NCBI GenBank assembly: GCA_036377595.1
Contig: DASUYB010000013.1
Location: 1-33,553, forward strand
Length of the DNA: 33,553 nucleotides
From: Longimicrobium sp.
GTDB taxonomy: Bacteria; Gemmatimonadota; Gemmatimonadetes; Longimicrobiales; Longimicrobiaceae
Reading direction: 5' to 3'
Made by a program: the position numbers and the translations under genes. The notes beneath the pieces are model-generated. The model did no database searches. It saw only the letters and a program-made list of their open reading frames with translations, and was not told where the DNA came from. Of the stretch, positions 15,149 to 32,743 are shown one piece after another; within the stretch, counting starts at the first letter, position 1, and each line of letters starts with the position of its first letter.

Positions 15149-15158
15149 GTGCGCGCGA

Positions 15159-15203: not shown

Positions 15204-15221
15204 GGGTGAGGGAGGAAGGTT

Positions 15222-15252: not shown

Positions 15253-15259
15253 GCGGGGG

Positions 15260-15415: not shown

Positions 15416-15493
15416 CGTCCCGTCTCCTCGCTGGGATGAATGGGGGGCGCCGGGGGTCGGCGCTCCCGGGTGGCGCGGCCCGGACGGCCGCGG

Positions 15494-16972
15494 TCAGGCC
15501 TGCGCGGCCGCCAGGGCCGGGGCGGCCGCCGCCGCCCGCGCCCGGTCGTGCTCCGCCAGGGTAAAGCGCATCTCCTGCTTGAGCGTGCCCTTGATCCCGC
15601 AGCAGGTGCGGCGGTTGTCGGTGATGCGGGTGAGCGGGCAGTGCGCGCCCTGGCACACCGGCAGGACGTGGCAGTGCTGGCAGAGCTGGTCGGTCTCGTA
15701 GGCGGGGTTCACCCAGCGGAGCATGTGGTCGTCCTTCAGCTCCAGGGTGCCGTCGGGAAGCACCTTCCCCACCACGTTGCTGGCCTCCTCGTACAGCGCC
15801 ACCGTGCACTTCATCAGGTCGCCGTGCGCGCCCACGATGAAGGAGTACGGGCGCGCGGCGTAGCACACGCCGCTGCCCAGCGTGGCCATCTGGTGGATCC
15901 CGCCCTCCTGCGTGAGCCCCACCTCGTCGGCCTTCTTCTGGAGCATCTGCGCCACCCGGCGGTCCTCGCCCAGCCCGCAGGTGTCGAGGTTGTCGTCGTT
16001 GCTCCCGCCCCACTTGCCCACGGCGCGGAAGCGCAGCACGAAGCGCGGGTCGCCGGCGAAGTCCTCGGACAGTGCCTCGAGGAAGGCGCCCAGGCGGGGG
16101 AAGTTCCTGTGGTCGAAGTTGACGCGGACCTTGACCTTGAACTCCTCGCCGCGGCGATCGCGCAGCGAGCGCAGGTTGTCGAGGATGGTGGAGTAGGTGC
16201 CGCTGCCGTCGCGCCCCACGCGCTTGCAGTCGTGGTCCTCGGGGAGGCCGTCGATGGTGATCTGCCAGTCGCGCAGCCCCCACCCCAGCAGCCTGGTGGC
16301 CCGCTCCTCGGTGAGGAGGTAGCCGTTGGTGGTCATGTGCTGGCGGTAGTGTATCCCGTGCTGGCGCGAGACGTCGTGGAACACCGGCGCCAGCTCCTCC
16401 ACCGCCTCCCACCCGTACAGCGGCTCGCCGCCGAACCACGACACCTGCAGCTCGCGCAGCGTGGGGGCGCGGTTCCGCGTCAGCGCCATCAGCCCCTGGC
16501 GCACCTCGGGCGTCATGGTGCCGCGGGCGAACTTCTCGTAGCAGTAGACGCAGCGGAAGTTGCAGTCCTCGCTGGTCAGCAGGATCAGCTCGAGCTTGTC
16601 GGTCCTCCACTGCTCCTGCGCCCAGCGGTAGCGGAAGCGGTCCATCTCGCTGACCGTGTCGCGCACGAGGTAGCCGCGCCGGTGCAGGTACTCGCCGGTG
16701 GAGTCCAGCTTGCCGCGGCTGCCGCCCGAGTCCAGCCAGGCCAGCACGCGGTCGGCGTCGCGCGCGCCGAACACGCTGATGGCGCCGGTGAAGGTGTTCC
16801 ACAGGATGAGCCGGCCGTCCTCGACCACCGTGCGCGCGTTGTAGCGCGAGGGCACCCAGCGCTGGCCCGGCGTGTAGCCGAGCTTGACCAGCGTCACGGG
16901 CGTCTCGGGCGCGCCGCGGTCGTACGGCGACACCTGCATGTCGATGGTCGGCTTCATCGCGGGGATCTCCAT
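15494..16972 (-). CDS. Radical SAM/SPASM peptide maturase
   Basis: 492 residues. The N-terminal 110 residues (SRYNARTVVEDGRLILWNTF, then a Leu-rich helical part) look like the leader-binding front domain common in radical SAM RiPP maturases. The radical SAM cluster motif is CNFRCVYC (C137, C141, C144), followed by WFGGEP (residues 179-184), typical of this superfamily. The C-terminal SPASM region has C370, C389, CQHC (431, 434), C440, C445 and CC at 457-458, enough for two auxiliary iron-sulfur clusters. Such enzymes make radical-based links in peptides, often thioethers to cysteine. The precursors with the CxxCxC core follow directly, so they are the likely substrates; the exact bond is not predictable. 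ATG 16972 (AGGACAGC before it) and ATG 16957 are both possible. A sigma-54-like promoter lies 48 bases upstream. Confidence 0.93.
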   Translation of the reverse strand: MEIPAMKPTIDMQVSPYDRGAPETPVTLVKLGYTPGQRWVPSRYNARTVVEDGRLILWNTFTGAISVFGARDADRVLAWLDSGGSRGKLDSTGEYLHRRGYLVRDTVSEMDRFRYRWAQEQWRTDKLELILLTSEDCNFRCVYCYEKFARGTMTPEVRQGLMALTRNRAPTLRELQVSWFGGEPLYGWEAVEELAPVFHDVSRQHGIHYRQHMTTNGYLLTEERATRLLGWGLRDWQITIDGLPEDHDCKRVGRDGSGTYSTILDNLRSLRDRRGEEFKVKVRVNFDHRNFPRLGAFLEALSEDFAGDPRFVLRFRAVGKWGGSNDDNLDTCGLGEDRRVAQMLQKKADEVGLTQEGGIHQMATLGSGVCYAARPYSFIVGAHGDLMKCTVALYEEASNVVGKVLPDGTLELKDDHMLRWVNPAYETDQLCQHCHVLPVCQGAHCPLTRITDNRRTCCGIKGTLKQEMRFTLAEHDRARAAAAAPALAAAQA

Positions 16973-17018
16973 GCTGTCCTGGGGTGCCCGGCCGGCGGCG
17001 CCGGGTAGGCGGGGAATG

Positions 17019-17439: not shown

Positions 17440-18693
17440 TCACCCGGCCTGGCGCGAGAAGGACTCCGGCTTCAGGCGGTGATGGCGGAGGAAGTCCATG
17501 AACTTGAGATAGTCGGCCGCGTCCACGCCGATGCGGCGGAGCAGGCGCTTGTAGCTGCCGTTGCTCTCGGCCAGACCGCGCTGCAGGATCGCGCGCACCT
17601 CGCCGCGGCTGATCTCGCGCTCCATGAACGGCTCGCGCACCACGTCCCAGAAGCTCTCGCCGCCGCGCGACATGCGCTCCCACGCCTCGGCCGCCGCGTC
17701 GCCGCCGGGACGGGGGGCGGGGGCGTGGCCGTTGCTCCCGGCGGGCGCGTGGCCGTTGCCGCCGGGCGCCGGCGCCGCGTGCGCGGCAGAGCTCTCCAGC
17801 GCGGGGATCAGCTCGTCGACGGTGATCTCGCGCCCCTCGGCCAGGTGGAAGCCCATGTCGATCAGCCCGTTCAGCTCGCGCACGTTGCCGGGCCAGTGGT
17901 AGCGCCCCAGCAGGTCGTGCGCCTCGGACGACAGCGTCTTGCAGCTGCCGTGCGAGGCCAGCCCCGCCAGGCAGTGGGTGGAGATGAGCTCCCAGTCGGT
18001 CCCCCGCTCGCGCAGCGCGGGAACGTGGATCCAGAAGTAGCGCAGGCGATAGAACAGGTCCTCGCGGAAGGTGCCCGCCTCCACCATCGGCCGCAGGTCG
18101 CGGCTGGTGGCGGCGATCACCCGCACGTCCACGTAGCGCACCACCGATCCCCCGACGGGGACGACCTCGCCCTCGCTGAGCGCGCGCAGGAGCATGGCCT
18201 GCGCGGCGGGCGACAGCTCGCCCACCTCGTCCAGGAACACCACGCCCCCGCTGGCTTCCTCGAAGATCCCGCGGTGGTCGTTCACCGCGCCTGTGAAGCT
18301 GCCCTTGCGGTGGCCGAACAGCTCGCTGGCCATCAGGTTGCCGTCGTGGTACTGCGCGCAGTTCACGCGCACGAACGGGCGTCCCCGGCGCGGGCCCAGG
18401 AGGTACAGGGCGCGGGCGAACAGCTCCTTTCCCGTCCCCGTCTCGCCGGTGAGCAGGATGGGCGCGCTGGAGGCGGCGAAGCGCTCGAGCTTGCGCTGCG
18501 ACTCGAGGAGCGCGGCGTCGCGGCCGATGAGCGTGACGGCGTGGGCCGCGCCCCAGCTTTCCACCGAGCGCAGGCGCACCGCCTCGGCCAGCGGCGAGAG
18601 CGCGCCGGCGGGGGGTACGGGTCCGGCAGGGTGGGTGCGCGGGCTCACCGCGGCCTCAAACGCACGAAGCCGCCCGGGTCCACAGTGCGCCAT
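17440..18693 (-). CDS. Sigma-54-dependent transcriptional activator (bEBP) with GSFTGA loop
   Basis: About 417 residues from ATG 18693; a TTG at 18726 would add 11. The AAA+ domain has Walker A GETGTGKE (83-90), the sigma-54 contact loop GSFTGA (131-136, against the usual GAFTGA), Walker B VVFLDEVGEL (about 151), FREDLFYRL and WPGNVREL (267-274). The first 60 residues are short and carry no recognisable receiver, GAF or PAS domain. A Gly/Pro/Ala/His linker follows the AAA+ part, and the C-terminus (LQRGLAESNGSYKRLLRRIG) looks like a Fis-type DNA-binding helix-turn-helix of a variant type. The gene lies inside the RiPP cluster, and paired dyads occur upstream of three cluster operons, so it probably activates them. 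Confidence 0.9.
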   Translation of the reverse strand: MAHCGPGRLRAFEAAVSPRTHPAGPVPPAGALSPLAEAVRLRSVESWGAAHAVTLIGRDAALLESQRKLERFAASSAPILLTGETGTGKELFARALYLLGPRRGRPFVRVNCAQYHDGNLMASELFGHRKGSFTGAVNDHRGIFEEASGGVVFLDEVGELSPAAQAMLLRALSEGEVVPVGGSVVRYVDVRVIAATSRDLRPMVEAGTFREDLFYRLRYFWIHVPALRERGTDWELISTHCLAGLASHGSCKTLSSEAHDLLGRYHWPGNVRELNGLIDMGFHLAEGREITVDELIPALESSAAHAAPAPGGNGHAPAGSNGHAPAPRPGGDAAAEAWERMSRGGESFWDVVREPFMEREISRGEVRAILQRGLAESNGSYKRLLRRIGVDAADYLKFMDFLRHHRLKPESFSRQAG

Positions 18694-18884
18694 GACGGGC
18701 GCATCCGTGTTCCTCGGCGGCTTCAACAGCAGGGCGAGACAGACACCGGGGCGCGCAACTCCCCCGGCGGTGTGAGGGTGGAACTGTCATCTGCCCTCGC
18801 GAGACGCGGAGACCCGGCCGTGAGGAGGGCCGGGGGATCGACATCCCCTGGGGGAGATCAGGATAAGCCTCAAGAGCGCGGCTG

Positions 18885-20063
18885 TCAATGAACAGTCGTG
18901 AAAAATGTGCTTTCTGAACGCGGTTCTACACCATTTGTCCAAGGACGGCGGCGTGAACGGTACAGACGCGCCATCGCATCCTCCGACGCCAGCGCTTCCA
19001 GCGGCAGCGCGAAAAGAGCGGCGAGGAGCGCGCCCCGCTCCGCGGACCCGCCGCGGGCACGGCGCGCGGCGTCCCATTCGCCCAGCGCGGTGACCGCGGC
19101 GTGCGCCATCGAGCGCAGCACCGCGAAGGCACCCTCTCCCAGGGCGCCGCGATAGTTGGCCAGGCGCCCGCCGGGGCGGAAATGGGGATGGTCCTCGATT
19201 CCCAGGAAGCGCAGCGCCCAATCGGAGCGGTAGCGCCCGGCGGCGGCGGTGATCCCCGCGAAGTCGGCCACGATCTCGTCGAGCGCGTGGGTCCGCATCG
19301 CCCCCAGCACGCGGCGGCAGAAGTAGTGCGCCGCCTCGTGCTCCAGGCGGATGGCCAGCGAGAGCGCGTCCCACCTCTCCGGCTCCATCCCCATCTCCCG
19401 TGCCGAGACGCCGCTGTACGGGCCGGGGGAGAGGATCACGAAGCGGTCCTGGTACAGCTCCTTGCGGGGGATTATCTCTCGCCACGCCGCGCGCCATCCC
19501 TCACCGTCTCCCGGATGATCCGCCTCCCACGCCCGCCGCAGCGCGGCGATGCGGTCCCAGTTGGCGAACCCCGCCACCATCAGCGCGCCCATCGAGTCGG
19601 GGATGGGGTCGGGCTCGCCATGCCGCGCCAGCGCGCGGACCAGCGTGGCGAAGTCGTCGCGGCACCCGGCGGCGAGGACGGGGAGGCGTCCCGCGGGGGT
19701 GGGATGGACAAAGAGACGGAGCGCGTCCGGCCGCGCGAGCTCCACGCCGGGCCCGTCCGGCGGCGGCGCGCCGCGTAGGGTGGACGCGCGGTACGCCTCC
19801 GTCTCGCTCATCCCCCTGGCGATGGGGAAGGCGAGCTGGGGGAGGCGCGCGCGCAGCACGGGCCAGGCGCCGCGCGCCTCCGCCTCGGCCTGGTAGCCGA
19901 GCCACGCAGCGGCGAACGGTTCGTCGGGGAGGGGGAGCGCGGGTGGGCGCGGGGGGCGGCGGAGGTGGACGCGGGTGTACGCCAGCAGCTCCTCCACCTC
20001 GGCGGGGCCGGCGCCGTGGCTGCGGTGGACCGCGGCGCGGAAGGCCGCCCCGCGCGCGCTCAC
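18885..20063 (-). CDS. Unknown protein with HEAAH metalloprotease-like motif
   Basis: 392 residues from a GTG start that overlaps the stop of the gene upstream by four bases (GTGA), so the two are translationally coupled. Residues 242-246 read HEAAH, preceded by LAIRL, followed by YFCRRVLG and then LDEIVADFAG (262-271). H242, E243 and H246 with a downstream acidic residue (E263 or D267) would fit a zincin metal site of the HExxH...E type. There is no signal peptide. I do not recognise the family. The motif and its place between the exporter genes and the activator make a peptidase or a peptide-handling enzyme attractive, but this is inference. A non-enzymatic or lipase-like role is not excluded. 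Confidence 0.75.
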   Translation of the reverse strand: MSARGAAFRAAVHRSHGAGPAEVEELLAYTRVHLRRPPRPPALPLPDEPFAAAWLGYQAEAEARGAWPVLRARLPQLAFPIARGMSETEAYRASTLRGAPPPDGPGVELARPDALRLFVHPTPAGRLPVLAAGCRDDFATLVRALARHGEPDPIPDSMGALMVAGFANWDRIAALRRAWEADHPGDGEGWRAAWREIIPRKELYQDRFVILSPGPYSGVSAREMGMEPERWDALSLAIRLEHEAAHYFCRRVLGAMRTHALDEIVADFAGITAAAGRYRSDWALRFLGIEDHPHFRPGGRLANYRGALGEGAFAVLRSMAHAAVTALGEWDAARRARGGSAERGALLAALFALPLEALASEDAMARLYRSRRRPWTNGVEPRSESTFFTTVH

Positions 20064-21298
20064 CGCTGCCCCCGCGCGGCCAGCGTCTCGGGCGGGGGCG
20101 CGGCGGTGCCGGCCGCGTAGTCGAGGTAAACGAAGCGGCCGCCCTGCACGGTGATGGTGGTGATGGGCTTGGTGGGGAGGTCGCCGTTGGCGTCGTAGGT
20201 GAAGGGGCCGGTGACGCCCGCCCAGCCGCGGGTGGCGTGCAGCGCGGCGGCCACGCGGTCGGGCGCGGTGCTCCCCGCGCGGGCGATGGCGTCGGCCAGG
20301 ACGCGGACGGCGTCGTAGCCCAGCGCGGCGGCGGCGTCGGGCGGGCGGCCGTAGCGCGCGCGGAAGGCGGCGCCGAAGCGGCGCACCTCGTCGCGCGGCG
20401 CGTCGGGGTGGAAGGCCGCCACGATCGTCGTTCCCTCGGCCGCGGCCCCGGCGGCCATCAGGTCGGGAACGCCGAGCGCGTCGCCGCCCAGCACGGGCTG
20501 GGTGATGCCGCGGCGTCGCGTCTCGGACAGGAAGGTGGCGGCGTGCGGCGTCTCGCCGGCCAGAAGGATGGCGTCGAAGTCCAGCTGCTTCCACTCGTCG
20601 AGCAGGGGATCGAGCGCCGAGGCGCCGGGCGCGGCGTTGGGGTCGTAGCTCTGCCGCGCGGCGATGCGGATCCCCAGCTCGCCGGCGTGCTCCTCGAAGG
20701 CGTTGGCCAGCGAGCGGCCGTAGGCGTTGCGCACGTAGTAGATGGCGATGCTGCGCCAGCCGCGGCGGTGCGCGACGTCGGCCAGCTGCGCCCCCGCGGC
20801 CACGTCGCTGAAGGTGCCGCGGAAGACGTGCGCGTAGCGCGAGCGCGTGAGCTCGGGATCGGTCGCCGCGGGCGCGAGGAGGACGACGCCCGCCAGGTCG
20901 TAGATGGGCGCGGCGGGGATGGTCACGTACGACTGGAGATGGCCGATCACGGCAACGACGCCGGGGTCCTCGGCGAAGCGCTGGGCCACGAGGCGGCCCT
21001 CGTCGACGGATTCGTGGTCGTCGGCCGCGAGGATGCGGATGCGCCGGTGGAGGACGCCGCCCCTGGCGTTGACCTCGTCGACCGCCATGTCGAGCCCCTG
21101 GCGGTAGAGGAGCTGGCTGCGCGCGGCCCACGGCCACGCCGCGCCGATGACGACGTCGCCCTTGCCGGACTCGGCGCGGCGGAGGCGCTCGGCCGCGGGG
21201 TCGGCGGTGCCGCCGCACGCCTGCAGCGTAGCCAGCGCCGCCAGTGCGGCGAGCGCGGCGGCGATGCGGGCGCCGGGGAGCGAGCGGAACGTGCGCAT
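20060..21298 (-). CDS. Branched-chain amino-acid-type substrate-binding lipoprotein
   Basis: 412 residues. MRTFRSLPGARIAAALAALAALATLQAC is a lipoprotein signal with a lipobox (LQAC), so the protein is anchored on the periplasmic side. The rest is a type I periplasmic-binding fold of the LivK/Peripla_BP_6 kind: DVVIGAAWPWAARSQLLYRQ, GVVAVIGHLQSYVTIPAAPI and ALGYDAVRVLADAIARAG. No permease or ATPase for an uptake transporter lies beside it. The ATG at 21298 gives a sensible signal peptide; the frame continues upstream to 21409 without one. It overlaps the HEAAH gene by four bases. Given the cluster, it may sense or capture a peptide or amino acid, but its ligand is unknown. Confidence 0.88.
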   Translation of the reverse strand: MRTFRSLPGARIAAALAALAALATLQACGGTADPAAERLRRAESGKGDVVIGAAWPWAARSQLLYRQGLDMAVDEVNARGGVLHRRIRILAADDHESVDEGRLVAQRFAEDPGVVAVIGHLQSYVTIPAAPIYDLAGVVLLAPAATDPELTRSRYAHVFRGTFSDVAAGAQLADVAHRRGWRSIAIYYVRNAYGRSLANAFEEHAGELGIRIAARQSYDPNAAPGASALDPLLDEWKQLDFDAILLAGETPHAATFLSETRRRGITQPVLGGDALGVPDLMAAGAAAEGTTIVAAFHPDAPRDEVRRFGAAFRARYGRPPDAAAALGYDAVRVLADAIARAGSTAPDRVAAALHATRGWAGVTGPFTYDANGDLPTKPITTITVQGGRFVYLDYAAGTAAPPPETLAARGQR

Positions 21299-21644
21299 CG
21301 GCACCGCCTTCGGAGGGGGAAGCCCGGCTCCATCTCGGATCGAGACGGGCGAATGAATTCGCGGCAACAACGGCCCGAAGTCCGCCTTCGCGGACTCCCG
21401 CGGCGGCATCCGCGCGGACGGGACGCATCGAGGCGGAGACGGGCATCCCGAAACTGCATCGACGCGTCAGCGCGGCATCGACCGGGGCAAGTCGATGACC
21501 GGCGGCAACCTCGATCCCATCTACCCAAACGTCCGCGCGGCCGTCCGCCGGGTCCCCGGGTTGAAACCCGGGGCTGGAACTGCGGGAAGTCCGCCTTCGC
21601 GGACTGCGCGGAGACGGTCGAGCGCGCTAGGGGCGTCGATCCAG
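21299..21644. repeat. Gene-free region with two copies of a palindromic repeat and a hairpin
   Basis: The 18-base palindrome AGTCCGCCTTCGCGGACT occurs twice, at 21379-21396 and 21588-21605. Between them is CCCCGGGTTGAAACCCGGGG (21554-21573), a perfect 7-bp stem. No coding frame is convincing. These look like small dispersed intergenic repeats. The region separates the exporter operon from the binding-protein gene, so it probably holds the latter's promoter, which I cannot point to. Confidence 0.7.
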
Positions 21645-21692: not shown

Positions 21693-24581
21693 CTACGCGA
21701 TCTGCCTTCGCGCCAATTCCCGGAACGGCCCGTCCACCGCCATCAGCTCGTCGTAGCGCCCCGACTGGACGACGGTGCCGCGCTCGATCACGCAGATGCG
21801 GTCGGCGTGCACGATGGTGCTCAGGCGGTGCGCGATCACCAGGCGGGTGGCGCGCAGGCCGGCCAAGGAGTCGCTGACGATGGCCTGGGTGCGGTTGTCG
21901 AGCGCGCTGGTGGCCTCGTCGAAGAGGAGGATGCGCGGGCGCGTGACGATCGCCCGCGCGATCATCAGCCGCTGCCGCTGGCCGCCGGAGAGCGTCGTCC
22001 CGCCCTCGCTCACCATCGTGTGCATCCCCATCGGCATGGCCTTGATGTCGGCGTCCAGCCCGCTCATCCGCGCCGCCTCCCACGCGTCCTCGAGGTTCGC
22101 GCCGGTGGAGCCCACGATGTTGGAGAAGAGGTCGCCCGGCATCAGCCGCCCGTTCTGCAGCACTACCCCGATCTGCCGCCGCAGCAGCAGCACGTCCACC
22201 CCGCCCAGCTCCTGCCCGTCGAAGAAGATCGACCCCGACTCGGGCTGCTCGAAGCCCAGCAGGAGGCGGAAGAGGGTGGACTTGCCCGACCCCGACGGCC
22301 CCACCAGCGCCACGAACTCGCCCGGCTCGGCATGGAACGACAGGTCGTCGAGCACGTAGGCGCCGTCCTCGGCGTAGCGGAAGAAGAGGTGCTGCACCGA
22401 GACCTCGCCCTGCAGCACGCCCGGGTCCGCGCGCCCCGCGTCGATCTCGGGCTCGGCCTCGAGGATCGGCCGCGCGATCTCGTACTGGGGGATGGCGGAA
22501 AGCGCCTGGGTGACGGCGATGCTGGTGCTGAGCAGCGCCGCGGTGAAGGAGCCGAAGGCGGCCATGAACGCCAGGAAGTCGCCCGTGCGCATCCCGTCTT
22601 CCTTCCCCACCATCCCCGCCGCGATGGCGAAGACCACGGCCTGCGCCAGCACCGGGAAGCCGGAGTTGAAGGAGGCCAGCCCCCCCGCCGCGCGGCGCAC
22701 CGCGTACCTCAGCCGCCGCTGCTCGGCGAAGCGGTCGGCCCACAGCCCGAACGCGCGGGCCTCGGCCGCGGCGGCGCGCAGCTTGGCGATCCCCGTGAGC
22801 AGCTGCAGCACCACCCCCTCGATCTCGGCCTGCAGCCGGCTGAGCACCCGCTGCCGCCGCAGCTGCACCACGCTGCTGGCCACGGTCGCCACGACGAGAA
22901 GAGAGGCGAGGAACGTCGCCCACAGCGCCAGCCTGCCGCTGTAGTGGAAGAGCAGGGCGAAATTGAAGAGGGAGAAGAGAAGCCCGAGGAGCGCCGTGGC
23001 GGATGCGCCCGATAGCGCCTCGCGGATGGCGTCGACGCCCATGGCGCGCGAGGCCAGGTCGCCCGCGGCGCGCGCGCGGAAGAAGTTGGGCGGCAGCGAC
23101 AGGAGGCGGTCCCACACGGCTCCCTGCACCGCGCTTCCCGCCTTCCCCTCGATGCGCGTGAGGGCGACGGCGCGGGTGAGCTGGAAGAGCGCGGCGGCCA
23201 CGGCCACCGCCAGGAGGACGGCGGTGAGCTGCGCCAGCTGCGCCCGCTCCGCCCCCGGGATCACCGAGTTGAAGAGCAGCCCCGTGGCGACCGGGGGCGC
23301 CATCGCCAGCGCGCCGCCGGCCGCGCCCACGGTCAGCAGCGTGGCCAGGTCGCGCCCGCACCCCCGCACCCCGTGCCGCAGGAGCCCCAGGATCCCCACC
23401 GGCCCCGGCGCGAAGGGGCGGTAGAACGACCAGGCGAAGGGGGAGAGGGTGCCCGCCTCCTTCGCGTCCATCGGGGTCCGCGTGCGGTCTGTAGGGTCGC
23501 ACAGCACGTAGCGGTTCCCCCGCTCGGGGAGGAGCGCCACGGCGCGGAGGCCGTTCTCGCGCACCGCCAGCATCGGCCCGCCGTCGCGGCGCCACCAGTC
23601 GTCGCGCAGCATCACCTTGCGCGTCTGGTAGCCCGACGCGCGCGCGATGGCCGCCAGGTCGCCCGTCACCGACGCCGGCGGGGGGCGGACGGTGAGCCCC
23701 TGCGCCTCGGCCACCAGGCGGCAGGCGGCCAGGAGGGCGTTCTCCTCCTCGCCGGGGGCGCGCAGCCGCATCCCTCCCTTCAGCCGGCGCGGATCGATGA
23801 CCGTGGCCAGCCGCCCCGTGGCCCGCGCCAGCACCGCCCGGTCGAGCGCGGCGCGCCGGCGCAGCCGCTCGCGCCCCGTCTTCTCCTCCGCCTCCGCCAT
23901 CACCCCGGCGGCGGCCAGGACGAGGTCGTGCAGCCGCTCGAGCCCCACCCACGCTTCCGCGGCGGGGGGCATCGCCGTCCCCGCCGTCACCCGCGCCTCG
24001 TTCTCCGCCGTCACCCACGCCGGCGCGGCGATGGGGACGGTGGCGCCGCCGTTCAGCGGGAGCGCGCGCATCGACAGCAGGTAGGTCGTCCCCTCGCCGT
24101 GGCGGAGCCAGGCCACGCCGACGGGGCGCACCGTGGCGCCGGCGGCCAGCGTGCGGGTGCCGCCCGGCGCCAGGTCGTCGGAGCGGCGGGGGACGGCGTC
24201 GCGGGCGATCCCCGCGCAGAGCGCCGCGGCCCACCCTTCCACCGCGTGCACGGCCGCCTCGCGCTCGGCCCCGTCCGCGGCAAGGCGGAGATGCCCCTGC
24301 GCCAGCGCCAGCAGCCGCGTCCCCGCCGCGGCGGCCGCCAGCAGCCCCATCCCGTGCGCCCCGGCCGACGCGCCGAGGCCCAGCAGCGCGCCGCCGGACT
24401 CCACGCGCACCAGGTGGCGGCGCGGCCCGTACGGCTCGGCGTCGCGCACGCGCACGGCGAACACGTCCACGTGCCCCTGCGCCACCAGCCACGCGGTGTC
24501 GCCGCCCAGCAGGAAGGGCCGCGGGGCGGACACGGGCGCGCCGTGCGCCGCGAAGAGCGAGCGGAGGGCGGGCGCGCTCAC
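21693..24581 (-). CDS. NHLP-type bacteriocin ABC transporter, permease/ATPase with inactive front domain
   Basis: 962 residues from a GTG start overlapping the upstream stop by four bases (GAGTGA). A long N-terminal part (about residues 1-400) has a cyclic-nucleotide-binding-like beta region and a C39-like segment without catalytic Cys/His. After it come the ABC membrane domain and the ATPase: Walker A GPSGSGKST near 762, signature LSGGQ near 861, Walker B ILLFDEATSALD near 885. This is the second transporter of the NHLM (NHLP) export pair; its partner upstream holds the active peptidase. Together with HlyD and TolC it should form the export route for the mature peptides. The open frame continues upstream to 25172, but that part is a shadow of the partner gene. 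Confidence 0.92.
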   Translation of the reverse strand: MSAPALRSLFAAHGAPVSAPRPFLLGGDTAWLVAQGHVDVFAVRVRDAEPYGPRRHLVRVESGGALLGLGASAGAHGMGLLAAAAAGTRLLALAQGHLRLAADGAEREAAVHAVEGWAAALCAGIARDAVPRRSDDLAPGGTRTLAAGATVRPVGVAWLRHGEGTTYLLSMRALPLNGGATVPIAAPAWVTAENEARVTAGTAMPPAAEAWVGLERLHDLVLAAAGVMAEAEEKTGRERLRRRAALDRAVLARATGRLATVIDPRRLKGGMRLRAPGEEENALLAACRLVAEAQGLTVRPPPASVTGDLAAIARASGYQTRKVMLRDDWWRRDGGPMLAVRENGLRAVALLPERGNRYVLCDPTDRTRTPMDAKEAGTLSPFAWSFYRPFAPGPVGILGLLRHGVRGCGRDLATLLTVGAAGGALAMAPPVATGLLFNSVIPGAERAQLAQLTAVLLAVAVAAALFQLTRAVALTRIEGKAGSAVQGAVWDRLLSLPPNFFRARAAGDLASRAMGVDAIREALSGASATALLGLLFSLFNFALLFHYSGRLALWATFLASLLVVATVASSVVQLRRQRVLSRLQAEIEGVVLQLLTGIAKLRAAAAEARAFGLWADRFAEQRRLRYAVRRAAGGLASFNSGFPVLAQAVVFAIAAGMVGKEDGMRTGDFLAFMAAFGSFTAALLSTSIAVTQALSAIPQYEIARPILEAEPEIDAGRADPGVLQGEVSVQHLFFRYAEDGAYVLDDLSFHAEPGEFVALVGPSGSGKSTLFRLLLGFEQPESGSIFFDGQELGGVDVLLLRRQIGVVLQNGRLMPGDLFSNIVGSTGANLEDAWEAARMSGLDADIKAMPMGMHTMVSEGGTTLSGGQRQRLMIARAIVTRPRILLFDEATSALDNRTQAIVSDSLAGLRATRLVIAHRLSTIVHADRICVIERGTVVQSGRYDELMAVDGPFRELARRQIA

Positions 24582-26818
24582 TCGGCCTCCAGCAGCGCGC
24601 GGTAGGGGCCGCCGGCGGCGTACAGCTCGTCGTGCGTTCCCCGCTGCACCACCTTGCCGCGCTCCAGCACCAGGATCTCGTCGGCGTCGCGGATGGTGCT
24701 GAGGCGGTGGGCCACGATCAGGCAGGCGCATCCCCGCCGGCGCAGCGCGTCGTCCACCGCCGCCTCGGTGGGGGGATCGAGCGCGCTCGTCGCCTCGTCG
24801 AGGACGAGAAGCGAGGGATTGCCCACCAGCGCGCGGGCGATCTCCAGCCGCTGGCGCTGGCCGCCGCTGAAGTTGCGCCCCGCCTCCTCCACCCGCCCGT
24901 GGTAGCCCCCCGGGCGCGCGGTGATCTCGTCGTGCACGCAGGCGTCCCGCGCGGCGCGCACCAGCTCGGCCTCGGACACGCCGGGGTCCCACAGCGCCAG
25001 GTTGTCGCGCACGGTGCCGGCGAACAGGAACACGTCCTGGTCCACGAAGGCCAGCGACGAGGCGATGGCCGCCGGCGCCAGCGCGTCGCGCGGGCGGCCG
25101 TCCAGCAGCACCTCGCCCGCCCAGGGGTGGTGGAGCCCGGCCACCAGGCGCGCGATGGTCGACTTCCCGCACCCCGACTCGCCCACGAGCGCGATCCGCC
25201 GCCCCGGCTCGAGGACCAGCGACAGGCCGTCGATCAGCGGCGGCTCCAGCGGGCTGTAGCCGAAGGTCACCCCGCGCAGCTCCAGCCGCCCCTCCAGCCG
25301 CGGCGCCTCTTCGGCCTCGTCGGCCGCGAAGGCGCCGGCCATGGGGTCGGGAGTGGCGTTCAGCACGTCGTCGAGGCGCGCCAGCCCGCCCTTCACCTCC
25401 TGCAGCGTCCCCCCCAAGTCCACCAGGCGGTTGACGGGAGAGATGAAGGCCAGGAGAAGGGCCTGGAGGGCCACCAGCATCCCCATGCTCAATCTCCCGT
25501 CCATCACCCGCACCCCGCCGATCCCCAGCAGCAGCGCGGTGTTCACGGCCATCAGGAAGGGGGGGACGACGGAGAGGAGATGGGTGTACAGCGCCAGCTC
25601 CTGCTGCGCGTTGACCACCTTGGCCTGCTGCCCCGCCCAGCGGCTGAAGAAGGCCGCCTCGCTCCCGGTGGCCTTCAGCGTCTCGATGGTCTGCAGCCCG
25701 CCCATGGCCACGCCCATCAGCTTGCCGCGGTCCTGCTGCAGCCGCTGCGAGATGTCGGTGCGCCGCCGCGACACCCAGCGCAGCGCGAGGACGTTGAGCG
25801 CGGCCACGGTCACGCCCAGCCCCGCCAGGAGGAGGTCGTACTGCACCATCACCGCGGCGTAGAAGGCGATCACCAGCAGGCTCAGCAGCGTGGTGGCCAG
25901 CTCGCCGGAGAGGAGCTGGGCCACGCGGTCGTTGATGGCCACGCGCGAGCTGATCTCGCCCGCGAAGCGCTGGGTGAAGAAGCCCACGGGAAGGCGGAGG
26001 ACGTGCCAGAGGAAGCGCCCCGAGCTTCCCAGCGCCAGCCGCGTTTCCAGCCGCAGGAGCTGCCGCTGCTGCAGCCAGGTGAGCCCGCCCATCACCAGCC
26101 CCGCCGCGGCCATCGCGACGAGGAGGGGGAGGGTCCAGGCGGAGAGCCCTTTCACCAGCACCTGGTCCACGAACACGCGCGAGAAGGCGGGGGCGACGAG
26201 GCCGGGGACGACCAGCACCGCGCCCGCCGCCACCGCGAACGCCACCGCCGCCTGCGCGCCGCGGAGGCGCCCCCGCAGCGACTGCACGATCCCGGGGAGC
26301 GCGCCGCCGCGGGCGAACGCCTCGCCCGGGCGGAAGGTGAGGACCACGCCGGTGAACGCCTGGTCCAGCTCCTCAAGCGTGACGCGGCGTGGGCCGGTGG
26401 CGGGGTCGTTCAGGTACGCCCATCCCTTGCGGAACCCCTCCAGCACCACGAAGTGGTTGAAGTTCCAGTGCAGGATCGAGGGTACCGGGAGGTCGCGCAG
26501 CTGCGCCGGCTCCTTCTTGAACCCCTTGGCCACCATCCCGTAGCGGACGGCGGCCTTGACCATGTTGCTGGCCTTGCTCCCGTCGCGGCTGACGCCGCAG
26601 GCCAGGCGCAGCTCCTCGAGCGGCACCCAGCGGCCGTGGTGGGCCAGGACCATCGCCAGCGTGGCGGCGCCGCACTCCACCGCCTCGAGCTGCAGGATGG
26701 TGGGTACGCGCACGCGCGTCTGCGCCTCGCGCCGCACCAGCCGCAGCACGTCGCGCGGCCGGAACCCGCGCGCGGCCGGCTCCGGCTGCGCGACGGCGGC
26801 GGGCGCGGCCTCAGACAC
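24578..26818 (-). CDS. C39 peptidase-containing ABC exporter (NHLP family)
   Basis: 746 residues. The N-terminal C39 peptidase has the expected triad: Q43 and C49 in LQLEAVECGAATLAM, H122 in HWNFNHFVVLEG and D138 in YLNDPATG. It cuts leaders after Gly-Gly, which occurs in at least six precursors here (VAGG, AAGG). A six-helix exporter domain and an ATPase (GESGCGKST, FSGGQRQRLEIARAL, LLVLDEATSALD) follow. The start is GTG 26818 with GGAGGGGCGC before it. It overlaps the NHLP partner transporter by four bases. HlyD ends 177 bases upstream with a hairpin repeat between, probably still one operon. Confidence 0.95.
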   Translation of the reverse strand: MSEAAPAAVAQPEPAARGFRPRDVLRLVRREAQTRVRVPTILQLEAVECGAATLAMVLAHHGRWVPLEELRLACGVSRDGSKASNMVKAAVRYGMVAKGFKKEPAQLRDLPVPSILHWNFNHFVVLEGFRKGWAYLNDPATGPRRVTLEELDQAFTGVVLTFRPGEAFARGGALPGIVQSLRGRLRGAQAAVAFAVAAGAVLVVPGLVAPAFSRVFVDQVLVKGLSAWTLPLLVAMAAAGLVMGGLTWLQQRQLLRLETRLALGSSGRFLWHVLRLPVGFFTQRFAGEISSRVAINDRVAQLLSGELATTLLSLLVIAFYAAVMVQYDLLLAGLGVTVAALNVLALRWVSRRRTDISQRLQQDRGKLMGVAMGGLQTIETLKATGSEAAFFSRWAGQQAKVVNAQQELALYTHLLSVVPPFLMAVNTALLLGIGGVRVMDGRLSMGMLVALQALLLAFISPVNRLVDLGGTLQEVKGGLARLDDVLNATPDPMAGAFAADEAEEAPRLEGRLELRGVTFGYSPLEPPLIDGLSLVLEPGRRIALVGESGCGKSTIARLVAGLHHPWAGEVLLDGRPRDALAPAAIASSLAFVDQDVFLFAGTVRDNLALWDPGVSEAELVRAARDACVHDEITARPGGYHGRVEEAGRNFSGGQRQRLEIARALVGNPSLLVLDEATSALDPPTEAAVDDALRRRGCACLIVAHRLSTIRDADEILVLERGKVVQRGTHDELYAAGGPYRALLEAE

Positions 26819-26995: not shown

Positions 26996-28255
26996 TCATC
27001 CCCCCGCCAGGCGGCGGAAGATGGGAAGGACGAGCGCCACGGGCCGCACCTCGCGCAGGGTGATCTGTGCCTTGCAGAGGGTGCCGCTGCGCACCTCCAG
27101 CGGCGGGCCGGCTGGGCTCGACCAGCGGTAGCGGCTGACCGTGCGCGGGTCGGGGATCAGGTCGGCGTGCACCTCGTAGGGCGCGCCGGTGCCGGCCAGC
27201 GCCTGCGCCAGCGCCTCGTTCTTCAGCACCCGCGCCAGCCCCTCGGGGGTGGCCGGGAAGTCGGAGACGTAGGTGACCGTGCCCAGCATCAGCCCGTACT
27301 CCTCCTCGCGCACGGTGCTGGGGGCGATCTGGATGCGCATCCCCGGGCGGATCTTCTTCCCCGCGTCGGACGACACGTAGACGATGGCCTCCAGGTCCTT
27401 CACCGTACGCCCCACGGGGTCGATGCGGACGACGGGGCGGCCGCGCTCCACCACGTGCCCCTGCTCGGCCATCACCTCCACCACCCGCCCCGTGTAGGGC
27501 GACACGACATTCGAGGTGCGCTCGAGCTCCGCCTCCAGCCGCTGCACCTCGCGCTGCGCCTCTTCCACCTGCAACTGCCCGGTCAGCAGCGAGGCGTCGG
27601 TGCGCTGGCGCACCGCCACCTGGTCGGCGTCGAGCTGCTTCAGCTGGCTCTGCGCCTGGCGGATCTGCTCCTGCACGTTCTGGTACTCCTGGCGCGTGCT
27701 GAGCAGCGTCTGCCGGGTCACCAGCCCGTCGCGCACCAGCCGCTCCTGGCTCTCCATCTTCTGCTCCAGCAGCTGCAGCGTCTGCTGGCTGGCGCGGATC
27801 CCCGCCTCGAGGTTGCTGCGCTGCTGCGACGCGTACGAGGCCTGCACCGAGCGCTCGCGCGAGGCCGACTGGGCGGTGCGCTGCTGCGAGAGCCGCAGGT
27901 CTTCCAGGTGGTTGCGCGCCTCGGTGAGCTTGTCCTGCAGCTCCGGCTGCGCCACCCGGGCCACCACCTGCCCCTCGTTCACCGTCTCGCCCACGTTCAC
28001 CGCCACGTCGGTCACCCGCCCGCCCTCCAGCGGCACCACCTCGTAGATCCCCCCGCTCTTCACCAGGATCCCCTGCCCGGGGATCTTCTCGGGGACCGCG
28101 CCGGCCACCCCCCAGCTCACCGTCACCGCCAGCAGCAGGGCGATGGCGCCCAGCGCCAGCCACCCGCCGGGGGTGGTGGCCTGCATGGCTTGGTCGAGCT
28201 GCTCGGGGCTGGCCAGCCGGTCGAGCGACACCTTGCGGAAGATGCTGTCGGCCAT
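26996..28255 (-). CDS. HlyD-type membrane fusion protein (NHLP secretion protein)
   Basis: 419 residues. A cytoplasmic start (MADSIFRKVSLDRLASPEQL), one membrane helix (LALGAIALLLAVTVSWGVAG, about 32-51), then a lipoyl/barrel part (VPLEGGRVTDVAVNVGETV), a long Gln/Glu/Arg-rich coiled coil (about 108-245) and the second half-barrel (SPYTGRVVEVMAEQGHVVER). This is the periplasmic adaptor that links the inner-membrane ABC exporters to TolC. The ATG at 28255 shares one base with the TolC stop (TGATG), so the two genes are coupled. Confidence 0.93.
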   Translation of the reverse strand: MADSIFRKVSLDRLASPEQLDQAMQATTPGGWLALGAIALLLAVTVSWGVAGAVPEKIPGQGILVKSGGIYEVVPLEGGRVTDVAVNVGETVNEGQVVARVAQPELQDKLTEARNHLEDLRLSQQRTAQSASRERSVQASYASQQRSNLEAGIRASQQTLQLLEQKMESQERLVRDGLVTRQTLLSTRQEYQNVQEQIRQAQSQLKQLDADQVAVRQRTDASLLTGQLQVEEAQREVQRLEAELERTSNVVSPYTGRVVEVMAEQGHVVERGRPVVRIDPVGRTVKDLEAIVYVSSDAGKKIRPGMRIQIAPSTVREEEYGLMLGTVTYVSDFPATPEGLARVLKNEALAQALAGTGAPYEVHADLIPDPRTVSRYRWSSPAGPPLEVRSGTLCKAQITLREVRPVALVLPIFRRLAGG

Positions 28256-29823
28256 CAGCGGCTCGCCTCGGCTGCGGCGGGTGGGGGGGATGGAGATTCG
28301 GCCAGCGGCGACGCGTCGGCCGCGGCGCGGCCGCCGGCGTCGCGCACCAGCGCCCCGGTCTCGAACGCCAGCCGGGCGCGCGCGGCGGCGTAGCGCTGCT
28401 GCGTGGAGATGCGCGACAGGAGCGCGCCGGTGAGCTGGTCCTCGGCCTGGATCACGTCGAACAGCGTCGACATCCCCAGCTGGAACTTGCGCTCCTCGTT
28501 CTCCACCGAGGTGCGCGAGAGGGCCACGGCCTCGTCAGCCCGCTCCATCTCCTCCTGCCCGTGCCTGAGCGCCTCCGCGGCGACCGCCACGCCCGCGCGG
28601 ATGCGGCGCTCCAGCTCCTCGGCGGCCACCTGGCCCTGGCGCTGCAGGGCGCGGCTCTGCGCGGCCCCGCCCGCGGCGGCCGAGTTCCCCAGCGCGGCCT
28701 GCCAGCTCACCTCCAGCGAGGCGCTCCAGGTGTTCAGGTCGCGGTAGAAGGGGGTCACCAGCGACGACCACGCCTCGCCGGGGACGGCGCCGGTGTAGCC
28801 CACGGAGAGCTGGAGGTCGAGCCGCGGCCGCGTGCCCGCCTGCGCGGCGTCGGCCAGGACGCCGGCCGCCCGCACCGCCTGCCGCGCGGCGGCCAGGTCG
28901 GCGCGGCGCTCCAGCGCCTGCCGCACCAGCGCGCCCGTCTCCGCCCCCGCCCCGCGGGTGATGGAGGGGAGCGGCGTGGCGGGGAGGGCGAGCGTGGAGA
29001 TGGCGTCGCCTTCCAGCCCCATCACCAGCCCCAGCGTGCTGCGCGCCTCCACCAGCTCCTGCTCGGCGGCGGACCGCGCCGCCTGCCGCGTCGCCAGCGC
29101 GGCCAGGAGGGGGTTGAGGTCGGCCTGCGCGCGCTCCTGCGCCGCGACGAGGATGCGCGTCTGCTCCACCAGCCGGCGGGCACGCGCCTCGGCCTGCCGC
29201 TGCACCTCGAGCCGCTCGGCCGCGGCGGCGTAGGCCCAGTAGGCGTCGGCCGCGTCGAGCGCGCCCACCGCCGTGGCATGCAGCAGGTCCGCCCGTGCCG
29301 CGTCCGACGTGGCCGCCGCCGCGCGCTCGGGCGCGGCCAGCTGGCCGCCGGCGCCGCGCAGCAGCGGCAGCTGCATCACCATCGACACCGACGCGGTGTT
29401 GTTGCGCCCGGTGGCGTCGGGGCTGAACTCGCGCCGCGTGGCCCGCACCTCGGGGGAGACGGAGAGGCCGGAGCGGAAGCGGCGCTCCAGCGCCACCCCG
29501 TACGATGACGCCAGCGTGCGCGAGGGGAGCACGGAGTCGGCGCCGCGGCCGGTCCACCCCAGCGTGTTGTCGCGCGTGCTGGTGACGAACGAGGTGAGCG
29601 TGGGGTCGAACGCCCCCCGCGCGGCGCGCGCCGCGCCCAGCGCGCCGGCCAGTTGCTCGCGCGCCAGCCGCACTCCGCCCGAGCGGTCGGCCGCCGCGTC
29701 CAGCGCCTGCTGCAGCGTGAGCCCGGGCTGCGGCGCCTGCGCCCACGCGCGCGGCGGGGCCCCGGCGGCGGCCAGTGCCGCCGCCAGGGCCGCGATCTCC
29801 CGGCTCGGGAATGCCCGCCGCAT
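28255..29823 (-). CDS. TolC-family outer membrane efflux protein
   Basis: 522 residues with a signal peptide (MRRAFPSREIAALAAALAAA, then GAPPRAWAQA). Two related halves of helical, coiled-coil-type sequence follow (LTLQQALDAAADRSGG; later ATRQAARSAAEQELVEARS; EEMERADEAVALSRTSVEN), and FQLGMSTLFDVIQAEDQL is the conserved 'GxxxxxDVLxAE' segment of outer membrane efflux proteins. It should provide the exit duct for the exporter encoded downstream. ATG 29823 follows the NHLP precursor stop after 5 bases (TGAGGCGTATG), so precursor and exporter are in one operon. A Pro/Ala-rich tail ends the protein. Confidence 0.93.
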   Translation of the reverse strand: MRRAFPSREIAALAAALAAAGAPPRAWAQAPQPGLTLQQALDAAADRSGGVRLAREQLAGALGAARAARGAFDPTLTSFVTSTRDNTLGWTGRGADSVLPSRTLASSYGVALERRFRSGLSVSPEVRATRREFSPDATGRNNTASVSMVMQLPLLRGAGGQLAAPERAAAATSDAARADLLHATAVGALDAADAYWAYAAAAERLEVQRQAEARARRLVEQTRILVAAQERAQADLNPLLAALATRQAARSAAEQELVEARSTLGLVMGLEGDAISTLALPATPLPSITRGAGAETGALVRQALERRADLAAARQAVRAAGVLADAAQAGTRPRLDLQLSVGYTGAVPGEAWSSLVTPFYRDLNTWSASLEVSWQAALGNSAAAGGAAQSRALQRQGQVAAEELERRIRAGVAVAAEALRHGQEEMERADEAVALSRTSVENEERKFQLGMSTLFDVIQAEDQLTGALLSRISTQQRYAAARARLAFETGALVRDAGGRAAADASPLAESPSPPPAAAEASR

Positions 29824-29828
29824 ACGCC

Positions 29829-30173
29829 TCAGGGCTTGAGCGGGTCGGGCGGGGGCGGCGGGGGAGGAGGAGGCGGGTCGTCGCTCCACGTGCCGTCGCC
29901 GCCGGCGGCCTCTTCCAGCTCGTCCTCGCTCAGCTCGTCGGTGTCGCGCGCCGGGTCGGGGAGCACCACCAGCGCGTCGAGGTCGCGCGGCCGCTCGACG
30001 AAGCGCACCCGGTAGCCGGCGGGAAGGGTGATCCCCAGCGTCTCGCGGAGCGCCCGCGCCGGGTCCGTCAGCAGCGCGTGGCGGAACTCCGGGTCGTGGG
30101 CGGCGCGGTCCGCCACCCTTTCCCACCCCGGCTCGCGGGGCGGGCCTGAAGAACCGGTCGGGTGTGGCGGCAT
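29829..30173 (-). CDS. NHLP-leader RiPP precursor with deca-proline core
   Basis: 114 residues. WERVADRAAHDPEFRHALL, TDPARALRETLGITLPAGY and RVRFVERPRDLDALVVLPDP form a nitrile-hydratase-like leader peptide (NHLP). LSEDELEEAAGG (81-92) ends it at a double glycine. The 22-residue core starts DGTWSDD, then has ten consecutive prolines (P100-P109) and ends DPLKP. The proline codons are mixed (CCG, CCT, CCC), so this is not a simple slippage run. It has no Cys and only one Thr and one Ser, so the usual TOMM or thioether chemistry is not obvious. Translating the run should need EF-P. GGAGACGACC precedes ATG 30173 and a good sigma-54 promoter lies 52 bases upstream. It is the first gene of the TolC/HlyD/ABC operon. 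Confidence 0.88.
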   Translation of the reverse strand: MPPHPTGSSGPPREPGWERVADRAAHDPEFRHALLTDPARALRETLGITLPAGYRVRFVERPRDLDALVVLPDPARDTDELSEDELEEAAGGDGTWSDDPPPPPPPPPPDPLKP

Positions 30174-30296: not shown

Positions 30297-30320
30297 TCCA
30301 CTTATCCGGACGGATACGGC

Positions 30321-30357
30321 TGGAGCCCGGCCTCTATCGAGTAGAAGCCGGGCTCCA
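30321..30357. promoter_or_regulatory. Tandem dyad, putative activator-binding site of the exporter operon
   Basis: TGGAGCCCGGCCTCTA at 30321-30336 and TAGAAGCCGGGCTCCA at 30342-30357 lie 21 bp apart, two helical turns. Together they can also fold as an 11-bp hairpin (TGGAGCCCGGC/GCCGGGCTCCA, 15-base loop), so a terminator role for the gene upstream is an alternative reading. The first copy is 96 bases upstream of the -12 GC of the sigma-54 promoter. Confidence 0.55.
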
Positions 30358-30497
30358 CCCCGCGGGCGGGAACGCGCCCGCCCACGTGGTCCGCGCGGGG
30401 GGACGAGGAGGACGCGGGGCGCCGCCCGGCGCCGCCGCGTTCCGCCGTCTCCGTGCCGCGCGGGGCCGTCGTGCCTGGTTCCGCGGTCCGGGGGAGA

Positions 30498-30671
30498 TCA
30501 GCCGCGGATCGGCGTTCCCGCGGGCTGCGTGGTGGCGCCGCGCGCGTCCGCCGGCTCACCTGCCGGCCAGGCGCGCGCCAGCCCGCCCGCCACCTGGTCG
30601 AGCTGCTCCAGGTCCAGCTCGTCGTCGGGCAGGGAGGCGATGCCTCCCGGCACGCGGATGCGCTCTTCCAT
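30498..30671 (-). CDS. RiPP precursor peptide G (Gly-Gly leader, no Cys)
   Basis: 57 residues. The leader MEERIRVPGGIASLPDDELD runs into LEQLDQVAGG, the same end as the precursors behind the radical SAM gene (LEVEELDQVAGG). The core LARAWPAGEPADARGATTQ, then PAGTPIRG, has no cysteine, one Trp, four prolines and three threonines. GGAGGCCTGAGC precedes ATG 30671. It begins 2 bases after the stop of the 381-residue gene (TGAGCATG), so translation is probably coupled; that protein may modify or handle it. Export by the C39 transporter is inferred from the Gly-Gly site. Confidence 0.82.
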   Translation of the reverse strand: MEERIRVPGGIASLPDDELDLEQLDQVAGGLARAWPAGEPADARGATTQPAGTPIRG

Positions 30672-30673: not shown

Positions 30674-31819
30674 TCAGGCCTCCTCTCCCTCGCGGTTGAC
30701 CCGGGCCGTGTGCCGCGCGGCCAGGTATGCCTTGGGCTGCGCCGGGCAGCCGTCCTGGAACACCAGCTTCACGTGGTTCACCCGCCGCACCAGCAGGCTG
30801 CGCCAGGGCTGGTGCGGCAGCACCGTGGCCGTCCACCCCGGCCACGCCTCCAGCGCCGCCACCTTCTCGGCCGCCGCGCCGGCCAGCGCGCGCAGCCACG
30901 CGGCCTCGCGGATCCCGCCCTCCAGCTGCGCGCGGCGGTGCAGCGGCACCTCCACCCCCAGCCGCGCCCCCGCGCCGCCGTCGCGCGCGTCGAGGTGCAC
31001 GTAGCCGGGAACCGGGCCGGGCCCGTGCTCGGTGCCGCCGCCCAGCGCGCGGAGGACGGGGGCCACGTCGCCCGGCCACCCGGCGCGGTGGAGGTACTCC
31101 TCCAGCGCGCCCGCGTCCACGCCGGCCGCGCACACGCGGATGGCGCCGTCGCCGCGGCCGGGGAAAAAGCCGGCGTAGACCATCCGCGCGCCGGCCGGGA
31201 GCGCCTCCATGCACCGCCGCACCGCGCGGATCGATCCCGACGGCGGAGGCCGCCCGCAGAGCCGCGCGCCGGCCGCCGCGGCGTGCGCCGTCCACTCCGC
31301 CGGCCCCGCGCCGCGCAGCGACAGCCACGAGAGGTCGACGAAGGTCCCCGGCTCGTCCAGGCGCAGCTCGCCCCCCTCCAGGTCAAGCTCCACCCAGAGC
31401 GAGCTGGCCGCGCGGTGGAAGATGGAGCGCGGGTCGGCCCACTCGCCGCAGAAGCGCCGCAGCCGCGTCCACCCGGGCCGGTCGGCCAGCGGGGCGGGAA
31501 GCGGGATGGCGTGGTTCACGCCGGCCAGGATCTCGCGCCCCGGCTCGCGCACGTGCAGCACCGCGTCGACCCGCGCCGCGCCGGCGTCCAGCCGGCACTC
31601 CAGGTACAGCTCGTCCGTCACCGCCGCGGGGATCTGCGCCAGCGCCGCGCGCAGCGCTTCCCGGGCGCGGGGGCTCGCCAGCGCGGGGGGAAGGTGCGGC
31701 TCCAGCACCTCCAGCGTCTCCGACAGCGGAGCGCGCACGAACCCGTCCCCCCCCGGCGCGGGGCGCCGCCGCGCGCGTGGCGCGGGGGCCTTGGGAAGCT
31801 CCGAGGCGGTGAGGTGCAT
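30674..31819 (-). CDS. Unrecognised protein coupled to precursor G, candidate RiPP enzyme or partner
   Basis: 381 residues from ATG 31819, which follows GGGGGAGGGA, a strong ribosome binding site; the open frame upstream (to 32059) is not protein-like. I recognise no family. It is soluble, with no signal peptide or membrane segment. Notable stretches: LRRFCGEWADPRSIFHRAAS, SLWVELDLEG, SIRAVRRCMEALPAGARMVY, GGTEHGPGPVPGYVHLDARD and, near the end, VRRVNHVKLVFQDGCPAQPK. No Walker, HExxH, radical SAM or ATP-grasp motif is visible. The tight coupling with precursor G and a near-consensus sigma-54 promoter tie it to the RiPP cluster. A modifying enzyme, a leader-binding partner or an immunity protein are all possible. 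Confidence 0.8.
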   Translation of the reverse strand: MHLTASELPKAPAPRARRRPAPGGDGFVRAPLSETLEVLEPHLPPALASPRAREALRAALAQIPAAVTDELYLECRLDAGAARVDAVLHVREPGREILAGVNHAIPLPAPLADRPGWTRLRRFCGEWADPRSIFHRAASSLWVELDLEGGELRLDEPGTFVDLSWLSLRGAGPAEWTAHAAAAGARLCGRPPPSGSIRAVRRCMEALPAGARMVYAGFFPGRGDGAIRVCAAGVDAGALEEYLHRAGWPGDVAPVLRALGGGTEHGPGPVPGYVHLDARDGGAGARLGVEVPLHRRAQLEGGIREAAWLRALAGAAAEKVAALEAWPGWTATVLPHQPWRSLLVRRVNHVKLVFQDGCPAQPKAYLAARHTARVNREGEEA

Positions 31820-32604: not shown

Positions 32605-32618
32605 TCCGGCTGTAAAGG

Positions 32619-32693
32619 ATCTCACGCAGAGTCAGCAGGGTCAGCAGAGGAACTGCGGTTTTCTCTGCTGACCCTGCTGACTCTGCGTGAGAT
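32619..32693. repeat. Intergenic long inverted repeat, copy 7 (perfect)
   Basis: Arms 32619-32649 and 32663-32693 are perfectly complementary over 31 bp with a 13-base loop. The arm opens with ATCTCACGCAGAG but continues with GTCAGCAGG units seen in no other copy, and both arms carry the change. Confidence 0.95.
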
Positions 32694-32743
32694 AATCTTC
32701 TTCGAATCTCGGAACGAGAAGGATCTCTGCGTGGGAAATCTCT

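Follow-up and report, generated by a model that had tools for sequence, protein, structure and literature searches.

The operon around precursor A, a poly-proline peptide gene in a 33,553-nucleotide stretch of Longimicrobium sp. DNA (the whole stretch analysed, hereafter the window), probably encodes secreted linear prenylated RiPPs. Their core Trp would be prenylated under guidance of the leader, the leader would be cleaved off after Gly-Gly, and the peptides would be exported, the proline run serving as a stiff tail. Precursor A lies beside a gene for an enzyme with a tryptophan-prenyltransferase-like predicted fold, which suggests that its single Trp is converted into a lipid anchor carried by a rigid stretch of prolines. 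The genes, their recurrence in relatives, the fold prediction, and the pattern of Trp and proline in the cores are shown by the data; catalysis, prenyl donor, site, cleavage, the polyproline-II rod, and any signalling or antimicrobial use are inferred from them. The features of the operon and its surroundings are as follows.

30674-31819, minus strand: prenyltransferase-like protein, 381 aa; predicted ABBA-type aromatic (tryptophan) prenyltransferase; no Pfam or NCBIfam family
30498-30671, minus strand: precursor B, a 57-aa Gly-Gly peptide with core LARAWPAGEPADARGATTQPAGTPIRG
30318-30360, minus strand: very stable RNA hairpin (z -5.0 vs. 200 shuffled sequences), located between precursors B and A
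29829-30173, minus strand: precursor A, 114 aa, with NHLP leader (residues 1-92) and 22-residue core; stop codon inside the coordinates
28255-29823, minus strand: TolC-like outer-membrane efflux protein (Pfam OEP, 111.4 bits; TIGR01844, 80.6 bits, under the cut-off)
26996-28255, minus strand: NHLM HlyD-type secretion protein (TIGR03794, 355.6 bits; cut-off 156.2)
24578-26818, minus strand: NHLM ABC1, peptidase C39/permease/ATPase (TIGR03796, 1083.6 bits, cut-off 853.3; PF03412, 113 bits)
21693-24500, minus strand: NHLM ABC2 permease/ATPase (TIGR03797, 902.6 bits; cut-off 709.4)
20060-21319, minus strand: periplasmic-binding-protein-like lipoprotein, Peripla_BP_6/ANF_receptor-like (PF13458, 178.8 bits)

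Precursors A and B and the NHLM exporter

The ATG start of precursor A has GGAG ~10 nt on its 5′ side, and its TGA stop codon is 5 nt short of the ATG that starts the TolC-like gene. The leader matched NCBIfam TIGR03793 at 49.6 bits (E 2.7e-13), 1.3 bits short of the curated cut-off of 50.9, and matched Pfam NHase_alpha (PF02979) at 33.8 bits, exceeding the cut-off of 27.2. Gly-Gly occupies residues 91-92. The core, DGTWSDDPPPPPPPPPPDPLKP, has the layout DGTWSDD-P10-DPLKP and carries a lone Trp, W96. Residues L81 and L86 (an LxxxxL motif) and A90, G91, and G92 were invariant in 8/8 aligned precursor A orthologues. Precursor A thus has a nitrile-hydratase-like leader that ends in Gly-Gly, and its gene clusters with those of an NHLM exporter; at the level of sequence, it is confirmed as an NHLP-leader RiPP precursor adjoining its own NHLM exporter. 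The original prediction of an NHLP leader, a Gly-Gly site, and a 22-residue core with prolines P100-P109 was borne out by these profile matches and by the position of Gly-Gly.

The prenyltransferase gene and precursor B sit upstream of precursor A; tolC and the HlyD, ABC1, and ABC2 genes then follow downstream. ABC1 is likely the Gly-Gly protease-exporter, judging from its family matches. Precursor B contains the motif GGLxR[AVTI][WYHL], which is recurrent in relatives, and shares LxxxxL with precursor A; against TIGR03793 it gave a weak match in the tail (12.4 bits). We infer from its context and this motif that precursor B is an NHLP member. The hairpin between precursors B and A is a possible attenuator or processing site; an equally long stem was not found in G011 or G001. 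A homologue of the lipoprotein adjoins ABC2 in at least seven related loci (L023, L024, L026, L028, L157, L158, and L161), and the protein is a possible sensor, immunity factor, or peptide-binding partner.

Linkage of the predicted prenyltransferase to Trp-containing precursors

Homologues of the prenyltransferase were found in 34 of the 154 genomes of the order and in 42 of 395 genomes sampled from the phylum. Loci that scored >150 bits were taken as close (n = 17). A precursor was present nearby in 16 of the 17, and all 16 had a core Trp. The 16 loci were made up of 13 with Gly-Gly NHLP precursors, two (G015 and G017) with NHLP precursors that have no Gly-Gly, the G015 precursor lying ~4 kb from the enzyme, and one (G007:C4) with two lanthipeptide-like precursors. 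No recognisable precursor was found near the seventeenth close prenyltransferase (G007:C200).

The enzyme, NHLP precursor A, precursor B, and the NHLM exporter recur jointly in two families of one class, probably of Gemmatimonadota. In families f1 and f5, precursor B accompanies the prenyltransferase at 10 of 12 linked loci; it was not found at G251 or G326. In G037 a B-like peptide lies ~5 kb away, beside another exporter. Exporter genes share a stretch with the prenyltransferase in most loci; none were found in G009, where the contig is 13 kb long.

Linked cores were compared with 15 unlinked Gly-Gly NHLP cores from the fetched loci, the thresholds and the linked/unlinked split having been chosen after the data were seen. 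Trp was present in 13/13 linked and 7/15 unlinked cores (Fisher p 0.0025, a guide only because the rows are related), and it made up 6.5% vs. 1.9% of the residues. One precursor profile included core columns and may favour W- or P-containing cores; a second, used for the locus surveys, was trimmed at Gly-Gly. Excluded from the core count were NHLP-like precursors in which Gly-Gly is unclear (three in L033; one each in L032, L034, and L067), L149, precursors that end in AGLCCCG or AGLCCCW, and leaders fused to a cyclase. The enrichment of Trp in linked cores is real but not absolute; two of the seven unlinked cores with Trp come from genomes with no detected prenyltransferase (G004 and G005). 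The cores of G012, G013, and G009 terminate in Trp. The core of precursor A had originally been described as nearly free of residues that are targets of known RiPP enzymes. This was wrong, since Trp is a known target: Trp96, which has a counterpart in 13/13 linked cores, had been overlooked, as had the adjacent prenyltransferase gene.

In G007:C4, a paralogue of the enzyme lies beside a LanM (PF13575/DUF4135, 358 bits; PF05147/LANC_like, 159 bits) in a class II lanthipeptide cluster (L065 = L100). This cluster also encodes two small precursors, with SCWS and SCWA at the ends of their cores. Remote homologues from families f2 and f7 (~100-120 bits) adjoin NHLP precursors that end in AGLCCCG and have no Trp. 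The model of one of them, L131, had pLDDT 84.8 and an ABBA fold according to Foldseek (best E 6.7e-6, to PriB). Either the f2 and f7 enzymes have a different acceptor, or Trp is the rule in the closer clade only.

Two further features were observed at loci with remote homologues. Whole cores of the form ~LCCCG stand beside remote ABBA-fold homologues in L131, L132, L133, L134, L137, L138, L164, and L165. In the same clusters as remote prenyltransferases, a protein at L139:8689-10008 has an NHLP-like domain N-terminal to a weak squalene-hopene-cyclase-like match (PF13243, 21.8 bits; NHase_alpha, 26.6 bits; both under the cut-off), and similar proteins were seen in L068, L135, L136, L141-L146, and L150.

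The proline run in linked cores

The ten prolines of precursor A are encoded by 4 CCG, 3 CCT, and 3 CCC codons, in agreement with the mixed codon usage reported originally. CCT is rare locally: five neighbouring genes together use 155 codons for proline, and 2 of these are CCT. The proteins encoded by these five genes contain 4-9% proline with no run longer than 3, so a P10 run is improbable by composition. Exact (CCN)10 matches occur on 10 contigs of the 7.2-Mb source assembly, so CCN tracts of low complexity do form in this genome. The run alone is consequently weak evidence, and we rejected it as a key feature by itself; its recurrence in relatives is what counts.

Runs of PPPP or longer were present in 7/13 prenyltransferase-linked Gly-Gly cores and in 0/15 unlinked cores (Fisher p 0.0014, again only a guide for related rows). 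Run length was 10 in the window, 8 in G011, 4 and 7 in G014, 6 in G007, 9 in G001, 7 in G256, and 4 in G251. The G012 core has a broken run, PPPSPPPAP, and no run was present in G013, G009, G326, G180, or G037. Where it occurs, the run mostly comes shortly after Trp (WSDD-P10, WSDPLN-P8, WA-P6, WEDPNN-P9, and WSDPS-P7). The proline run is a semi-conserved tail, dispensable in the 6/13 linked cores that have no intact one. The original prediction called for a search for poly-proline homologues next to the same exporter type, and the seven cores with PPPP or longer provide them. It also held that absence or irregular variation of the run would point to drift; this was seen in part, in the six cores in which the run is absent or broken and in run lengths that range from 4 to 10. 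Its proposal of a structural poly-proline peptide is compatible with these data and forms part of our preferred reading.

The run could instead be a CCN tract that drifts and is expanded by slippage, only the leader and Trp being of importance. The (CCN)10 DNA on 10 contigs of the source genome, the range of run length across homologues (0 to 10), and the cores of G013 (DGTPW) and G009 (ADTDVCGSW), which have no run, all agree with such drift. However, the run was kept in loci whose prenyltransferases are only ~35-41% identical to that of the window (G014, G007, and G001), and in two families, and PPPP was absent from all 15 unlinked NHLP cores of the fetched loci. The proline codons of eight cores are also mixed (41 CCG, 21 CCC, 7 CCT, and 2 CCA of 71) while their first two positions stay CC, an argument that is partly circular, the count having been limited to codons for proline. 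Most of a tree of 14 prenyltransferases lacked resolution, with 1 of 11 inner branches starred. On this tree the PPPP label required 3 changes, vs. 5.0 with shuffled labels, and 20 of 500 shuffles were as low; clustering of PPPP on the tree is thus weak. We consider drift of the whole tract unlikely, although it deserves to be kept in mind.

Predicted fold and substrate of the 381-aa protein

A Pfam and NCBIfam scan of nine family members gave no NCBIfam match and two unrelated weak Pfam matches. A profile search against PDB sequences returned chance matches only (best E 0.35) and recovered no known prenyltransferase. ABBA families diverge strongly in sequence. The 381-aa protein and its homologues, nine sequences in all, were aligned. 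The AlphaFold2 model (pLDDT 86, pTM 0.86) has ten strands with helices between strand pairs, in agreement with the five alpha-beta-beta-alpha repeats of an ABBA barrel. A Foldseek search of the PDB gave 20 matches with E<=1e-3; 20/20 were prenyltransferases, and the first 12 were tryptophan prenyltransferases. The top match was 5-DMATS (6zs0, E 5e-7), and PriB and IptA were also matched. VIA-align matched the indole prenyltransferases MpnD (Z 17.2, rmsd 4.3, 304 residues aligned) and CymD (Z 17.0, rmsd 4.2, 296 residues aligned). TM-scores of ~0.5 and identities of no more than ~20% indicate that the 381-aa protein is only a distant relative of solved prenyltransferases.

Polar residues invariant in the nine-row alignment were E74, R76, D85, E144, D146, R222, R228, E290, K351, K363, and Y365. 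Invariant residues alternate (i/i+2) along predicted strands (E74/R76, W142/E144/D146, and K363/Y365), an arrangement that fits the lumen of a barrel. On the basis of the model, the 381-aa protein is predicted to be an ABBA-type prenyltransferase that is deeply diverged and unmodelled in Pfam and NCBIfam. Because the ABBA fold is common to prenyltransferases of other acceptors, it leaves the substrate unfixed.

Judging by their titles, most of the solved structural matches have free tryptophan or small indoles as their substrates, and Trp is not rare in unlinked NHLP cores (the 7/15 above). Both observations would suit an ABBA-fold protein that prenylates a small molecule, or merely binds peptides, and leaves precursors A and B unmodified. 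This is improbable in view of the tight recurrence of the enzyme with precursors and exporter, the Trp in 16/16 linked precursors, the paralogue inside a lanthipeptide cluster, and the precedent of MppC (PMC12715784). Trp prenylation of the precursors remains the reading that we prefer.

Other suggested roles for the proline run

The original prediction also suggested that the proline run stalls ribosomes before the exporter genes. From the stop codon of precursor A to tolC the distance is 5 nt in the window and 4 nt in G011, and EF-P is present in the genome; however, EF-P is also present in all 14 control genomes, so its presence does not discriminate. Precursor A directly precedes tolC in these two loci, but in G014 precursor B lies between A and tolC, in G256 other NHLP genes and B lie there, and in G012 the exporter is on the other side of the prenyltransferase. 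With gene order varying in this way among relatives, and the position not conserved, stalling as a general role was rejected, and we regard an element that tunes exporter-gene translation as very unlikely. Modification of the prolines themselves, e.g. by a hydroxylase, has the number of prolines as its sole point in favour and is hardly credible, since a scan of the operon genes revealed no recognisable proline-modifying enzyme and the extra enzyme that recurs has a predicted prenyltransferase fold.

Proposed pathway and comparison with known systems

In the pathway that we favour, the ABBA prenyltransferase would recognise both precursors by their leaders, the acidic LxxxxL stretch that precedes Gly-Gly being the probable contact. 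It would then transfer a prenyl group from a presumed donor onto the core Trp, which is Trp96 for A and, for B, the Trp within LARAW. Cleavage after Gly-Gly would fall to the C39 peptidase domain of ABC1, and ABC1/ABC2, HlyD, and TolC would export the peptides. Mature A would keep the proline run, which would form a stiff polyproline-II rod with the lipidated Trp at its head, and might be used as a signal, antimicrobial, or surface anchor.

The closest parallel is found in Moorena, in which the ABBA prenyltransferase MppC geranylates Trp82 of MppE and needs the Nif11-type leader of MppE with its LxxxxL motif (PMC12715784). Like that system, the window has a predicted ABBA-type enzyme, a long RiPP leader with an acidic LxxxxL before the core, and a core Trp as putative acceptor. 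The lanthipeptide context has its counterpart in the G007:C4 member of the window's enzyme family, which occurs with a LanM. MppE differs in having a Nif11-type leader and a lanthionine macrocycle, whereas in the window the leader is of NHLP type, the poly-proline core is linear, and there are two precursors. No lanthionine synthetase was found in the window operon.

PalQ of Paenibacillus prenylates the C-terminal Trp of the NHLP RiPP PalX (PMC10853753). An NHLP-type precursor and Trp prenylation would be common to both systems, and the Trp-terminal cores of G012, G013, and G009 may be compared with that of PalX; however, PalQ has an isoprene-synthase superfamily fold that is unrelated to the ABBA barrel (PMC10853753). 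Cyanobactin prenyltransferases resemble the predicted enzyme as alpha/beta barrel peptide prenyltransferases but are leader-independent and act mostly on macrocycles (PMC10853753, PMC12715784). The enzyme family of the window matched no prenyltransferase model in Pfam or NCBIfam.

The leader, Gly-Gly, HlyD, ABC1, and ABC2 correspond to the NHLP/NHLM system of Haft 2010 (PMC2887384). Heterocyclisable residues abound in the cores of that system, unlike the core of precursor A, and the paper contains no word starting with prenyl or proline (PMC2887384). The literature searched included few subscription journals and covered prenyltransferases together with NHLP, proteusins, Gemmatimonadota, or Longimicrobiaceae, poly-proline or proline-rich RiPP cores, and Longimicrobium RiPPs; no description of the present combination was found in it.

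We therefore raise, tentatively and with somewhat less than even confidence, the idea that the operon represents a kind of linear two-peptide RiPP not described before. Its products would be prenyl-Trp lipopeptides, guided by an NHLP leader, with the lipidated Trp at the head of a rigid polyproline-II rod, and they would be made by a new, deeply diverged ABBA family that perhaps acts on CCC-type cores in other families of the class. If true, this would explain how an NHLP core can do without residues for heterocyclisation or lanthionine formation, assign a role to proteins that Pfam and NCBIfam do not model, and provide a peptide Trp prenyltransferase acting on linear, proline-rich cores.

Other features of the window

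Several further features were recorded. A DUF7005 protein (18888-20090, minus strand, 395.8 bits) contains HEAAH, which we take to be a possible metalloprotease motif; a partial match to this protein lies downstream in the G011 locus. A regulator with a sigma-54 interaction domain is encoded near the operon (17443-18726, minus strand; PF00158, 202 bits). A second RiPP cluster (13,600-17,000, minus strand) encodes a radical SAM/SPASM protein whose best match, TIGR04463, scored 182 bits and fell short of the cut-off of 525. The same cluster has several short precursors with Gly-Gly whose cores contain Cys, one example being GGETDINQNCHSCTCPPRQQ. At the window edge (3-635, minus strand) there is a truncated transposase-like ORF with HTH_33 and a weak DDE_3 match. 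A long palindrome at 32617-32697, consisting of tctcacgcagagtcagcagggtcagcagag and its complement, lies downstream of a DUF892 gene.
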